NCBI RefSeq assembly: GCF_003171515.1
Contig: NC_089394.1
Location: 124,001 to 188,000 of the forward strand
Length of the DNA: 64,000 nt
Direction of reading: 5' to 3'
Origin: Pyrenophora tritici-repentis
Lineage: Eukaryota; Ascomycota; Dothideomycetes; Pleosporales; Pleosporaceae
Shown here: piece by piece, positions 49,976 through 58,128 of the stretch
Layout: every line of letters begins with the position of its first letter
Position numbering within the stretch: position 1 is the stretch's first letter
Made by a program: the position numbers and the translations under genes
The notes under the pieces: model-generated
The model's input: only the letters and a program-made list of their open reading frames with translations
What the model was told of the DNA's origin: nothing
The model's database searches: none

Positions 49976-50650
49976 ATGGGTCCACATATATTCTATCGAG
50001 TCGAAGACGAACATTCTTGCGCCCGCTACATCGATAGACAGGGTATAATTGCAGAGTACAGAGATACCTTGGTTAATTTTAGAAAGAAGGGAGCTGCTTT
50101 GCTAGACTAGATTGCGCAACATCTCGATTAGAGCAATAGATATCCTACGCTATTCATTTCAACGTATTGTGACAAGGAGGTAGCGTAGGGAGAAGTAGAA
50201 CGGCGAGTGACTGCAGGAAAGAGGGACGTGAAGATCTACAAGATTAATATAGATGCTAGAAACGAGCGCACAGAGTATCGTAACATCCGACTTCTTGCTA
50301 AGAACCTAGGCTATTATATTCCCTTCGATGTATGGAACTACGCTGGCAAATGGGTCGGGGTGTGGTTGGGGTTGGGTTAGAAATTTTGCGACCCCAACCC
50401 AACCCCAACCCATTTGTCAGCGCCAAGCTTAGGGTTGGGTTGGGGTTGGGTTGGGGTCGCACGGACCATGGGTTAGGGTTGGGTTATAGTAAAAAAATTG
50501 CAAGATGTATAATATAGATTTCAATAAAAGAAAAGTTTATATAGTATCACAGTAGATTAACACAGTGTAGCATTAACTAGTTTCATTTATAATATACAGA
50601 GGCTTCGCCAGCTAGCATTTAAGCACGTGTATCTAGATATATCTTATAAT

Positions 50651-51223
50651 CTAGAGAAAAGCTAGTAACTCGCGCGCAAAGTAGCGCCTAGCCAATTGAG
50701 AATCCTTCTCTTGAATAGTAACCCTCTTTGCGTGAATAGCATTGATGTTGCAGTCTATAAAAGTTATTAAATGAAAAATAGTATAGGGTAGATAGACTAT
50801 ACCCTCAAAATAACCAACTAAGAAAGCTTCTGTAGCTTCCTGAAGAGCTTCGATTGCAGATCGTTGAAAGCGGATATCGGCCTTGTGCACCTGTGCAAAT
50901 TCGCGCACTACGCGGGAAAAGGGGAGTTTTCGCAAGAGTAGTTCAAAACCTCTCTGGTATCTCTTGATTTCCCGTAATGCGACAGCTAAGCTAAATTAGA
51001 AAATAGCTGTGATAAACGACTGTGATAACCTACTGCCGGCCTTAAACTTGCGCTTCTTCTTAACAGCTACAGGTGCCTTTCGCGTAGACTTTCCTGCTAC
51101 TTGACGTCTAGCCTTACTAGCAAGGGCCTTCTGAGCCGGCTTGCCGCCAGTAACTGTCTTGCCATCAGGACCACCCCGGCCGGCTTTACCGGTGACCTTA
51201 GGCCGTGGTTTTGTCCTTGCCAT
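50651..51223 (-). CDS. Histone H3 variant with extended N-tail, transposon-borne
   Basis: Three exons on the minus strand: 51034-51223, 50803-50985 and 50651-50754. The introns are 48 nt each (GTAGGT...GCTTAG and GTATAG...TTATAG). The spliced frame is exactly 159 codons, 158 aa. Both junctions rebuild H3 consensus: [14 protein letters not shown] and [15 protein letters not shown]. The tail starts MARTK, keeps GGK and LASKAR-like pieces, and is ~18 residues longer than canonical H3. The histone fold is complete ([52 protein letters not shown]), with 4 extra C-terminal residues. Loop 1 has canonical length. The residue aligned to Lys56 is Arg (R75). It probably forms nucleosomes with H4; a role in transposon chromatin is inference. 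Confidence 0.93.
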
Positions 51224-51733
51224 TGCGTAGTAGAGTAGATGATGAACGTAGGCGACGTATGTGATTAATTACTGTGATAAATGTGGTCGACAATTAAGAA
51301 AGTAGTAGGCTGAAAGAGTTAGGTAGCTGGAAAGTTTGGGCGACGGCAATTTCCCGATTTCCGCACTAGTAAAGGCAGCAGCGCACGGACTGCATGACGT
51401 AATTTGCTGTTTCACGATCGCATACAACCATTTCTGTTGCAAAATCAGTAGCGAGCATATCATACAAACGTGTTAAACTGCTGTGATAAACGCCGAGCTC
51501 GCGCATGCGTACAGCCCAAAAATGAAGGAATCATCGATGTGTTGATCATTTTGGGTAATTTCCGCGTTTTCGCGCTAGCGCAGGCAGCAGCGCACGGACC
51601 ATTTCTAGGTGAGCATAATGCTGTCTACCCATTTCTCCAGCCCCTGACGCCCAGTAACTCCCAACACCTAATAACTCTCTTTACTACATTGAAAACACCC
51701 CATTTACAACAGCGCATTATCACAGTCCCCGCC
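51224..51733. promoter_or_regulatory. Shared divergent promoter of the H3 variant and hATC genes
   Basis: 510 bp between two divergent starts. A ~45-bp direct repeat ending GGCAGCAGCGCACGGAC occurs at about 51349-51392 and 51556-51601. TATCACAG motifs lie at 51272-51279 and 51481-51488 (minus) and 51718-51725 (plus). The layout suggests common regulation or transposase binding. Confidence 0.6.
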
Positions 51734-52655
51734 ATGCCTGTCGCGAAAGAGCAAGTCGGCGACGTACCTGAAGGCCTAGTTCCAGCCATCAAACTTGAAC
51801 CTCCGCCTGGGTTCGAACAAGATGAGTGGGAGCAGCTTACCGATGTAATAATCACAGCCATTTATCACAGCTTATGCTAATATAAGCAGGGATTTGCGTG
51901 TGAAGCTGACGAGATTGACGGTATCTTAGATCAAAGAGGTAGTGGGGGTTCACGAAAAGGCCGACCTATCAATTTGAGCGTCCCCTATACTGGCTCTCTG
52001 AGTGGTAGCGCCCGTGCTATTGCTCAACGTGAACGCAAAGCTCTTTTCGATAAAGAGGAGAAGGTACTTGAAAGCGTTAGAACAGCCGACCGCTCCGCGA
52101 AGTACCAACTGAAGAAATCGCTTTTGCAACAGCCTAAGTATAAATTAGCAAATAGTGCTAGACAGGCTAAGCTGCTAGAGAAAGAGTGGGATATACTTTC
52201 AGAGAAGCGGTTTACCCAGAAAAAGTCTGGTAAGTTATCACAGCTGTTTATCATAGACATCTGCTAATAGACTATCCCAAGTGGCGAAGGATATACTAGC
52301 AATACCAATTGCTCAGGTTGGGGTTGAAAGAGTTTTCAATGTTGCTAAGGATGTTATTGGTAGTCGGAGGCACCGACTATCTGCCCGGACAATACAGCAG
52401 ATAATGGTTCTTAAGGATACAATATCTCAAGAGGAAGAACAGGGTCTAGACTACCTAGTTGCTCAATTAGGGGAGGATGGAGAGCCAATTGACGAGGTTA
52501 ATGATCTTTTTGAGCTTCCAGCCTCGTTAGAGCATACCTTCGATATAGATGAGGAGAACCAGACTACAGAAGAAGAGTCGGAGGAAGAGGTCCAGGAGGA
52601 GCGTCAATTGCCACCTCGAAAGCGCCAGCGTCCTCAGCGCTACCGTGATAATTAG
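51734..52655 (+). CDS. Reduced hAT protein with dimerisation domain only
   Basis: Three exons: 51734-51844, 51890-52229 and 52282-52655. The introns are 45 nt (GTAATA...AAGCAG) and 52 nt (GTAAGT...CCCAAG); the last acceptor was chosen because it alone keeps frame. The product is 274 aa. Residues 1-37 are acidic with Pro (PEGLVPAIKLEPPPGF). The middle is a charged helix-rich block (ARAIAQRERKALFDKEEKVL). Residues ~155-200 are a hATC dimerisation segment (DILAIPIAQVGVERVFNVAK, then SRRHRLSARTIQQIMVLKD). The tail is acidic and ends in basic PPRKRQRPQRYRDN. The catalytic core and BED finger of a hAT transposase are absent. It could dimerise with a full transposase, as helper or inhibitor (inference). 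Confidence 0.8.
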
Positions 52656-52802
52656 CTGTGTTAATATATCTCGTTTTATGTATCTAATATATCATCAACG
52701 TGTACACATTATCTTAATTAAGTGTTGTTCCGTTAAAGTACCCAAAAAATATAACCCAACCCCAACCCAACCCAACCCAACCCAAGCCCAACCCTACCAC
52801 TT

Positions 52803-52901
52803 GGTCTGTGCGACCCCAGCCCAGCCCTAACCCATGGTCTGTGCGACCCCAACCCAACCCTAACCCATGGTCTGTGCGACCCCAACCCAACCCCAACCCA
52901 A
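52803..52901 (+). repeat. Subterminal 33-bp repeats of the hAT-H3 element
   Basis: Three units starting at 52803, 52836 and 52869: GGTCTGTGCGACCCCA followed by ACCCAACCCTAACCCAT. One inverse copy lies near the left end (50425-50480), and an internal inverted copy of the terminal GCTGGCAAATGGG-like end is at 50386-50425. The G-rich strand could form quadruplexes. Confidence 0.85.
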
Positions 52902-53001
52902 GACTGGGTATACCCAACCCATTTGCCAGCGTATATGGAACAACTCGAAGCACGAATACGTCTTCCTCTATCGCATTCTAGACAGCGTAGTTGTAGGATA
53001 G

Positions 53002-55449: not shown

Positions 55450-58128
55450 CTATGACAATTCTGCAGGCGGCTCTTCCCACGTTCCTATCGCAAACTCTTC
55501 CGTGAGCTCCTCATCAGTATGCTTTGCTGCTGTTGTCGTGCTTGGTGTTGTAAAACCTGCACGAGTCCACCGTTGCAAGCACACCAAAGCAGCCAGTAAC
55601 TGCGCGCCAATTTTCCGCCTTTGTGGCTCAATTATATCGCCAGTTCCCGCAAAAACGCGCTCACAATCAGAGCTGGAGGCGGGTATAGTCAACACGTCGA
55701 TCGCCAATCGTGAAAGATGTGGATACTTCGGCTTCAACGATAACCAGTACTGTACAGCTGTTGGACCCTCCTTGTGTTGATCAGACGTCCACATAGGCTC
55801 TTTTAACCAGCTATCGTACTCATCCTCCACCTCCAATGTATGCTCGCCGTCCTCATCTAGTATAGCGTCGATAGCGTCGTCAAAGCTGCTCATGGTAGGT
55901 TTTGGCGCAGGGGTTGGTGTTGTGGCAGCAGCGGCAGGCTTGTAGGCAGCCCAAACCCGCAGAAACTTCGCGTGCGCGGTGCTCAATTGTGTAGGTTTGT
56001 CGCGCCAGAAGGGCTTAGAGTATGTTTTATATCGTGGATGTAGTGCCGTAGCTGCGTAGTAAATGGGACTTTGGAGGATCTTAGTAAAGTAATTGCTCGC
56101 TTTTCGCCTCGCGGCTCGCAGGTTGATCGGGATGTGATCTTCGGGCGCCTCAGATGGCTCGTGGTTGACCGATTCGTATGGCCGAAGGCGTGCATCCAGC
56201 TCAGTTATCACACTCTCAAATACTGGGATGACCTCGTAGAGTGCGCCAAAACGGCCACACTTGCCGCGGCCTTGGAGGCGATCTGTAGCAAACTTGAGCG
56301 GCTGCAGTATCGCCATGTACTCAGTAATCACCGCCCAGTCAGCCGCCGTAAGGCCGTCTGACCTCATCCACCGCGGCACATCAGGCAGCTTGTTTCCTCT
56401 AATAGCTGCCTGTTCGTCAGCCTGTTCAGTCTCGCGAATGTGGTACGTGGCGTATGCGTTGATAGCTTGTTGGAGCTGAACTCCGCGCTTAAAGCAGTCG
56501 TAATAGCTGTTCCAACGTGTAACACACGGCTTAATTGGCTCGCGAGTGCCGCCGCTGGCGCCTGTGGGCATGCTGTTAACTGCCTCGCGTTGGCAATCTT
56601 CAAAAATACTCCACTGCTTCGGCGTGTTGATGTAGTTGATAATATCAAGATACACGCCAAGCGGTCCTTCTTTCCGCCACTCCTTCATGTAAAAATCCTC
56701 CATCTTTGTGTTCTCCAGGGCGTTGTTATACGCGTCAGCATCCCTCCCGAACATAATCGTTTGGCCAACAAGGTTAAGTATGTGGCAAGCGCAGCGGAGG
56801 CGGCGATCGGAGGCAGAAAAGTGGTACATCGAGGCGAGTTTGTTAACAGCGGTGTCGTTATTGTAAGCGTTATCGAGCACAAAGTAGCCGAGTTTGCTGC
56901 GATTAATGCTGAAGGATTGCAGGATTTTGGTTACAGCGTCAGCTATCGCCTCACCAGTGTGGGCACCCACCAGCTGCGGCAGCGCGATGGGTAGGTCAAC
57001 TATCGCGCCCTTACTGTTGGCGTAGTGAGCAACTACAGAAAAGAAGCCACGTTTGCCGCCTTTTGTCGTCCACCCATCGAAGCTTATATGTACCTTGCTC
57101 TCGGCTTCAGCCAACGCGCGCACCACCTGAGGCCGTAGCCAACTGTACAACCTCATCACGAACGCTGACACGCTGTTATGAGACCTCCATAACGCCGCCT
57201 CTGCCTCAGGATTAGCAAGCCTGATCATCTTGCGAAAAGCCGGCGTCTCAAACTCGCGGAGTGGTCTGTTGTTGTCGACCAGCCAGAGCGCAGCTGCCTG
57301 CCGAAATTCTTGTACGTCGAAGTTTCCTATAGTCTTGTACGCCTCTAGACTAAATTTGACACCGCTTAGAGCTGCCTGACGAAGTGATTGTTGTCCATGT
57401 TTGCGGAGAGGTTTGCTTAGGATTGGACCATCTTTGCTGAGCCGATGACCAGGTTTATCAAGCTGGAGGTGCCCGTTGGCGGCAGTGGTTGACTTCGTTA
57501 CTCGGTGTACACCATTAGGTAGCTTATGAATATGACAGTACTTGCACACAAAGTACAACTCATCTGGGTGGTGAGTACCCTCCTTCCAGACACGCCAGCC
57601 GTGTTGAAAAATCCAGCTTGCCTTGCCTCGTGGAGTGCTCAGCGGCGCGACAAACCCCTTTAATCGCGACCAATCGACGCCCTCAAAGTCGCGAAAATCG
57701 ACGCTCACAGCGCTATCCTCCTCCACCGAAGCCTCAGTGGCAGCGCTAGAGAAAGCTAAAGGCTGTACAATAGAGTCCTCTGGCTTATCAAACATTAACT
57801 GCGACTCCCAGGCTGGCTCATCAGTGAGCCGAGAGGCTTGTGAGGCAGCCAAAATAGGCAGTGGTGATGCCCGCCGAGGGCGCTCCTCGGGTTGTTGTAC
57901 AGGCTTACATGGCGGTTCAATAGCCCGTGTGGGCGGCTCGATAACTTGTGTAGGCGGCTCTGTAGGCGGATCCGGCGTACTTTCTGGCAGCTCTATCGGC
58001 TGGGTTGGCTGGCTGCCGTCACCCAACAGCGCTTTGAGCGTAGGTTTGCGCGTACGTTGTGCTCGCTTGAAGGGAGTATCAGCTTCTTCGGCAGCCTCGG
58101 GCTTGCGTTTTGCTGGTATAGAGGGCAT
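55450..58128 (-). CDS. Intact hAT transposase (hAT-3)
   Basis: An uninterrupted 892-aa frame. The N-terminus is basic with Pro/Glu-rich repeats (ELPESTPDPPTEPPTQVIEP). A BED-like zinc segment follows (WIFQHGWRVWKEGTHH, FVCKYCHIHKLPNGVHRV). The RNase-H-like catalytic region shows HISFDGWTTKGGKRGFFSVV, FVLDNAYNNDTAVNKLA and CACHILNLVGQTI. The hATC dimerisation domain is near the C-terminus (DVLTIPASSSDCERVFAGTG). All regions needed for cut-and-paste activity are present, with no RIP stops, in contrast to hAT-1 and hAT-2. The probable left end at 55279 resembles the 158-bp MITE ends, so this copy or its kin could be the source of MITE mobilisation. A right end was not identified. Confidence 0.92.
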   Translation of the reverse strand: MPSIPAKRKPEAAEEADTPFKRAQRTRKPTLKALLGDGSQPTQPIELPESTPDPPTEPPTQVIEPPTRAIEPPCKPVQQPEERPRRASPLPILAASQASRLTDEPAWESQLMFDKPEDSIVQPLAFSSAATEASVEEDSAVSVDFRDFEGVDWSRLKGFVAPLSTPRGKASWIFQHGWRVWKEGTHHPDELYFVCKYCHIHKLPNGVHRVTKSTTAANGHLQLDKPGHRLSKDGPILSKPLRKHGQQSLRQAALSGVKFSLEAYKTIGNFDVQEFRQAAALWLVDNNRPLREFETPAFRKMIRLANPEAEAALWRSHNSVSAFVMRLYSWLRPQVVRALAEAESKVHISFDGWTTKGGKRGFFSVVAHYANSKGAIVDLPIALPQLVGAHTGEAIADAVTKILQSFSINRSKLGYFVLDNAYNNDTAVNKLASMYHFSASDRRLRCACHILNLVGQTIMFGRDADAYNNALENTKMEDFYMKEWRKEGPLGVYLDIINYINTPKQWSIFEDCQREAVNSMPTGASGGTREPIKPCVTRWNSYYDCFKRGVQLQQAINAYATYHIRETEQADEQAAIRGNKLPDVPRWMRSDGLTAADWAVITEYMAILQPLKFATDRLQGRGKCGRFGALYEVIPVFESVITELDARLRPYESVNHEPSEAPEDHIPINLRAARRKASNYFTKILQSPIYYAATALHPRYKTYSKPFWRDKPTQLSTAHAKFLRVWAAYKPAAAATTPTPAPKPTMSSFDDAIDAILDEDGEHTLEVEDEYDSWLKEPMWTSDQHKEGPTAVQYWLSLKPKYPHLSRLAIDVLTIPASSSDCERVFAGTGDIIEPQRRKIGAQLLAALVCLQRWTRAGFTTPSTTTAAKHTDEELTEEFAIGTWEEPPAELS

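Follow-up and report, generated by a model that had tools for sequence, protein, structure and literature searches.

The window analyzed here is a stretch of 64,000 nucleotides of Pyrenophora tritici-repentis, a fungus of wheat leaves (assembly GCF_003171515.1, contig NC_089394.1, positions 124,001 to 188,000 of the forward strand), and positions below count from its first letter. It holds a short hAT element that carries a histone H3-like gene, H3L, on the minus strand and a chimeric gene on the plus strand. The features are as follows; all paired motifs come from a motif scan.

50331..50338, no strand: left target site duplication TATGGAAC, 8 bp (from the sequence and an empty paralogous site)
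50339..52933, plus strand: short non-autonomous H3L-hAT element, 2595 bp, with 17-bp terminal inverted repeats (TIRs) at both ends, then GGGTTGGGG-type subterminal repeats
50544..50565, plus strand: paired motif GTATCACAG-N4-TTAACACAG, left subterminal
50651..50754, minus strand: H3L exon 3, Asp106 to the derived C-terminus and stop
50755..50802, minus strand: H3L intron 2, 48 nt, GT-AG, the sole element intron where the paired motif was not found
50803..50985, minus strand: H3L exon 2, H3 core from Thr45 to the codon of Asp106
50986..51033, minus strand: H3L intron 1, 48 nt, GT-AG, with TTATCACAG-N4-TTATCACAG at 51007-51028
51034..51223, minus strand: H3L exon 1, N-tail up to the codon of H3 Thr45
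51259..51280, minus strand: paired motif upstream of H3L
51468..51489, minus strand: paired motif in the divergent intergenic region
51704..51725, plus strand: paired motif closely upstream of the ATG of the chimeric gene
51734..52655, plus strand: chimeric gene, 274 aa, exons 51734-51844, 51890-52229 and 52282-52655 (our splicing)
51849..51870, plus strand: paired motif in intron 1 of the chimeric gene
52235..52256, plus strand: paired motif in intron 2 of the chimeric gene
52270..52275, plus strand: 'gactat' junction of the internal deletion that leads from the long to the short form (from the sequence; named in PMC3538342)
52643..52664, minus strand: paired motif over the transposase stop, right subterminal
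52934..52941, no strand: right target site duplication TATGGAAC (from the sequence)

Results

Splicing of the three H3L exons gave an H3-like protein of 158 aa, and both junctions restored the H3 consensus, including AGTVALREI, just as the preliminary description had read the gene. The product matches the Pfam family Histone (E 9.4e-32), its closest solved structure in the PDB is a histone H3 (E 2e-40), and across residues 44-130 it is identical to the host H3 at 62 of 87 positions. Two database gene models of P. tritici-repentis (P0001 and P0002) likewise have 158 aa and are 99% identical to H3L; proteins 99-100% identical to H3L and to the central protein of the element are present in the database for this species. 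That the gene lies wholly between hAT ends with a perfect 8-bp duplication also proved correct. The TIRs are exact over 17 bp (TACGCTGGCAAATGGGT), TATGGAAC stands on both sides, and the joined flanks find an empty target, a 100% match at G000:C6:160333-160584 (query 1-252) that lacks the element and spans the flank junction after query base 159. A further uninterrupted target copy, 94% identical, lies at C1:6841389-6841603. Short TIRs and an exact 8-bp duplication are what is expected of a hAT element. Another hAT transposase ORF (892 aa, Dimer_Tnp_hAT, E 3.5e-17) is found at 55450-58128 of the window on the minus strand, about 2.5 kb from the H3L element.

The preliminary description knew of no hAT with a histone cargo. 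This was mistaken, and we dropped the idea of a wholly new element, because an H3L element of P. tritici-repentis has been in print since 2013 (Manning et al., G3, PMC3538342), with both size classes and with H3L ESTs. The window element is the short form of this published element, down to the 'gactat' junction. Both accounts have two forms, the set of H3L, central ORF and hAT transposase in the long form, the 'gactat' deletion in the short one, an in-frame chimera and near-identical copies. They differ in copy number, with 22 short and 11 long copies here versus 16 and 10 in the reference of PMC3538342, and in size, which is given there as 2.3 and ~5.6 kb and is here ~2.6 and 5.87 kb from TIR to TIR. 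What we add to this known element is detail.

In the short form, the N-terminus of the central protein (first two exons) is fused in frame to the hAT dimerization region (52282-52655); length and junction of the 274-aa product agree with the database model P0129 and with Manning et al. (PMC3538342). The long form additionally encodes an 848-aa hAT transposase (Dimer_Tnp_hAT, E 2.4e-20), of which the window copy retains the dimerization region, and a 354-aa central protein. For an RNase-H-like core, a region absent from the short form, the transposase gave a sub-threshold signal only (PF14372, E 0.041, under the Pfam cut-off). An internal deletion joined the central gene to the transposase C-terminus to give the short form. 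Since the transposase region is missing there and the ends are common to both forms, the short form is presumably moved by transposase from intact long copies. The central protein gave no Pfam family above the cut-off, and its structural model (mean pLDDT 74.5) resembled none of the PDB folds at E<=0.001, so that we dropped the idea of a known chaperone, which these searches did not support. It ends in a long acidic stretch.

The 40.9-Mb assembly contains 33 copies of the element. A Pfam histone scan of the genome returned 41 matches, 33 of them H3L, all of which sit in the element, and the exact left end of the element also occurs 33 times by row count. That a hAT has captured a histone and carries it is therefore borne out. 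Thirty of the 33 copies encode the complete H3L of 158 aa, a count that we rechecked without a fixed alignment length. The three broken genes are those of L030 (frameshift, and no exon 3 in the fetched stretch), L031 (frameshift by a one-base deletion) and L041 (start codon lost, stops present). Among the 11 long copies, five have an intact 848-aa transposase and eight a central protein of 354 aa. Perfect 8-bp duplications flank eight of the 11 long copies and 15 of the 19 short copies that have both ends in the fetched stretch; in the short copies L028-L030 the second end is some kilobases distant. Apart from the divergent L041, copies differ by a handful of bases. Across 29 H3L coding sequences (L041, L028, L029 and L030 left out) we counted three segregating sites, of which one is silent and two alter an amino acid; with so little variation we abandoned a test of selection on copies within the genome.

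Two arrangements of copies are recorded here in their own right. The flanks of L021 and L024, the two elements on the 35-kb contig C18, match exactly those of the L017 and L025 pair on C7. This reflects a recent duplication or a redundant contig, and the count of 33 may include one stretch twice. L019 (G000:C4:2928590-2931384) and L023 (2934126-2936921) form an inverted pair with mismatched duplications, the halves of which are mutually reverse-complementary, the outcome to be expected from an inversion of the intervening DNA by recombination of one copy with the other.

The sole divergent long copy, L041 (G000:C1:7525049-7531791), carries RIP-like mutations. Of the 284 positions that set it apart from the reference long copy, 231 are C:G-to-T:A as seen from the reference, 183 of these at CpA/TpG. 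RIP or a similar process has hit the H3L family at least once. The window copy is indeed free of RIP stops, as had been noted; given the RIP-like changes and the broken H3L of L041, this reflects youth and not shielding. The idea that H3L protects its element from RIP is accordingly unsupported, L041 having been mutated despite its cargo. Literature on RIP activity in the genus conflicts: Manning et al. consider RIP inefficient if present (PMC3538342), no recent RIP is reported for P. teres repeats (PMC12543289), and Pyrenophora is named among the genera with the most active RIP (PMC12730594).

We then looked beyond this genome with a search of the 158-aa product and a phylogeny with host H3 and CenH3, both of which the preliminary description had proposed. 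The search found H3-like relatives in Pleosporales and metagenomes. Among the 120 protein matches listed, the derived end EDCN.NAIHA.RVTI..KDS.LA..YY, or one near to it, occurs in P. teres (P0054, P0094), Paraphoma (P0058), Alternaria alternata (P0065, with 16 member sequences on 9 contigs), Massariosphaeria (P0066) and metagenomes (P0067, P0069). In a tree of 20 hand-chosen proteins, H3L and six of these (P0094 was left out as the second P. teres copy) form one group with support 97/93, found in 98% of 200 bootstrap trees; the tree is unrooted, has several long branches and leaves 12 of its 17 inner branches open. In this tree the group lies apart from host H3, and the single CenH3 row (host) falls outside it too, though on a long branch. 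Membership rests on the common ending together with the tree. A profile search with the H3L alignment brought no new member among its best 120 matches, which were filled by large and canonical H3 proteins.

It had further been proposed to look for hAT ends around every match. In this genome all 33 H3L copies lie in the element; elsewhere the support is one of gene neighbors in P. teres. There, the locus tags of H3L (P0094, CFE70_001393) and of a homologue of the central protein (P0124, CFE70_001394) follow directly on one another, and the longest contig recorded for each is of equal length, so that the H3L-central gene pair is very probably present in P. teres too. Carriage by a hAT is shown for this genome and supported by these neighbors in P. 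teres. Core identity of H3L between the two species is 79%, tail identity 57%. As a member of an H3-like lineage in Pleosporales, the histone was probably not captured recently; its relatives in other fungi hint at a cargo of greater age and better preservation than had been assumed.

A comparison of the seven members with host H3 (a reference exact but for one typed end residue) showed 40 of the 87 core positions unchanged in all seven. Counted by cells, 28% of the core and 45% of the tail are changed; for tail lysines the figure is 14 of 62 cells. K14, K18 and K42 never change, K4, K23, K27 and K37 change once each, and K9 and K36 are replaced in five of seven members each, a pattern drawn from lineages that are not independent of one another. 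K36 being replaced as often as K9, the latter is not singled out. H3L of P. tritici-repentis keeps K4, K14 and K36, has V for K9, in an alignment that is loose there owing to a tail insertion, and has Q for K27, which is missing in this species alone; with K9 and K27 replaced and the insertion present, its tail is not that of a canonical H3. Two metagenome members (P0067 and P0069) retain K9, which weakens loss of K9 as a universal mark of the group. Among positions that we take to be nucleosome contacts, R49, R53, K64, R69, R72, R83, R116, T118, D123 and L126 are invariant across the seven members. Three members have another residue at R63, a DNA-contact position, and two have K at R52; H113, K115 and R129 each differ in a single member.

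Intron 1 of H3L holds the 9-mer pair TTATCACAG-N4-TTATCACAG, with its repeats 13 bp apart. A scan of the long element L033 (G000:C3:1038317-1044598), with at most four mismatches in all, found 12 sites for this pair, compared with a mean of 0.07 and a maximum of 1 in 30 dinucleotide shuffles. Six of the seven element introns hold it, each time sense to the gene, so that the motif of H3L intron 1 is common to five introns of the other two genes. The remaining six pairs are found outside coding sequence (five) or overlapping the transposase stop (one). Eight of the 12 sites are kept in the window copy (50544, 51007, 51259, 51468, 51704, 51849, 52235, 52643). Genome-wide, 256 matches with at most two mismatches were obtained versus 2 in the control; among about the first 100 listed, four are outside H3L copies (G000:C2:4952392, C8:2032541, C2:256540, C5:3250115) and are perhaps remnants or relatives of the element.

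Introner-like elements of fungi are short introns alike in sequence, with near-identical copies scattered over many host genes. The H3L motif appears to differ from them in that its sharing is, among the matches listed, almost confined to one transposon family, in that it is a pair, and in that it occurs outside introns too. Distant homologues of the central protein offer a further view: P0141 and P0142 (48% and 41% identical over 55% and 63% of the query) run, as database proteins, through intron 2, where GKLSQLFIT and GKLSHYIIT are, at the protein level, what the paired motif would encode. At intron 1 a second central protein, P0131, gives a good fit to the first half of the pair only. A genome scan for relatives of P0131 revealed no second family, the places listed being all in H3L copies except one short match on C7. 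We regard the paired motif as a candidate binding site for proteins of the element or a candidate splicing signal.

Host H3 has one intron, at codon 19, which is missing from H3L; H3L for its part is interrupted in the T45 and D106 codons, where host H3 has no intron. On intron positions, the gene fits capture of an intronless H3 copy followed by intron gain, and H3L would then probably have been acquired without host introns and later have received one of the type found in the element. Alternatively, the captured gene could have been another H3.

A separate capture of H3 by hAT elements is reported for Pseudocercospora, Cercospora and Sphaerulina (Dhillon et al. 2019, PMC6710886). As here, the elements of Pseudocercospora fijiensis and five relatives are hATs with 8-bp duplications and many copies of H3-like sequence. 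Unlike the two-intron, mostly full-length H3L, the P. fijiensis H3 copies are intronless and RIP-inactivated, and they sit in elements of 9.5-9.9 kb. These authors inferred capture of an intronless H3 copy in P. fijiensis and describe their hAT consensus sequences as without similarity to the P. tritici-repentis element.

Discussion

The observations fit together in a reading that we hold to be rather probable: the window contains one copy, in the short form, of the published H3L-hAT, and its H3L belongs to a Pleosporales lineage that probably was acquired without host introns, later gained an element-type intron and kept a working core. Anatomy, copy number, grouping, residue pattern and motif are observed, and the H3L ESTs come from the literature (PMC3538342). 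H3L is most likely expressed, pairs with H4 and enters nucleosomes. We did not find the H3L grouping, the K9/K36 pattern or the paired motif in the open-licence literature of PubMed Central, and count all three as additions. The parts of PMC3538342 that we examined contain neither the wider group nor the K9/K36 pattern nor the intron motif; in its main text the whole words 'lysine', 'H3K9' and 'intron' do not occur.

What the histone does for its carrier is where the explanations part. Lacking K9, and in P. tritici-repentis also K27, H3L would make chromatin that is hard to mark by H3K9 or H3K27 methylation. It is possible, and this is the function that we favor, if only tentatively, that H3L is a retained cargo histone with an anti-silencing effect, perhaps resisting H3K9 methylation. 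The K9/K36 pattern makes this proposal more specific, and is a pattern, not a proof. Silencing counter-measures as cargo of fungal transposons have already been proposed: fungal DNA transposons, hATs included, carry a TET/JBP dioxygenase gene thought to counter silencing (Kojima 2025, PMC12730594). That cargo is an enzyme acting on 5-methylcytosine, whereas the cargo of H3L elements is a histone. We place on the same level the view that H3L was captured by chance, drifts, is intact since the copies are young, and is of no use to the element. The near-identity of the copies is as this view would have it, as are the diverged tail with its insertion and a loss of K9 that could be drift where 45% of tail cells have changed; drift is considered possible by Manning et al. 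(PMC3538342), and the transposed copies of P. fijiensis are all reported inactivated (PMC6710886). Such a passenger would not readily have kept an open frame and unchanged histone-contact positions across a group in which the central proteins of P. tritici-repentis and P. teres are only 65% identical, nor does it account for a core that changes less than the tail and lysines that change less than other tail residues.

Two further explanations give H3L another task. As a factor in transposition, H3L and the acidic-ended central protein would together form a module that acts on chromatin, makes target or donor sites accessible and is recruited by the paired motifs. The two genes are divergent neighbors here and have consecutive tags in P. 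teres, the acidic C-terminus can be recognized by eye in those homologues long enough to include it, and the motif is found around all three genes of the element. Acidic tails are common in nuclear proteins, the central protein matches neither a Pfam family nor a PDB fold at the cut-offs used, and the short form is the more numerous one though it has lost the acidic tail; we consider this explanation improbable. Least credible to us is that the extra copies serve the fungus (e.g., by dosage or altered expression) with the transposon as a vehicle. Effects on expression and genome function were raised by Manning et al. (PMC3538342), and an expanded histone family is reported in all isolates compared (PMC5913888), but a normal H3 gene and one like CenH3 are already present in the host, and in this genome every H3L copy lies within the element.

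The farthest-reaching form of the anti-silencing proposal is that a hAT lineage of Pleosporales has long carried its own H3, in which the core and the acetylatable lysines were kept and K9 and K36 were shed in most members, resisting silencing marks, and that the element spread its family-specific paired motif through introns and regulatory regions. We offer it as speculation and would be inclined to bet against it. If it were true, a transposon that opposes silencing with its own histone would be a new kind of counter-defense, parallel to the proposed role of TET/JBP. The anti-silencing proposal is directly testable, as one can derive from the tail substitutions the marks that the elements should lack. 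Together with the wider group, the neighboring pair in P. teres turns an oddity of one species into a comparative case.
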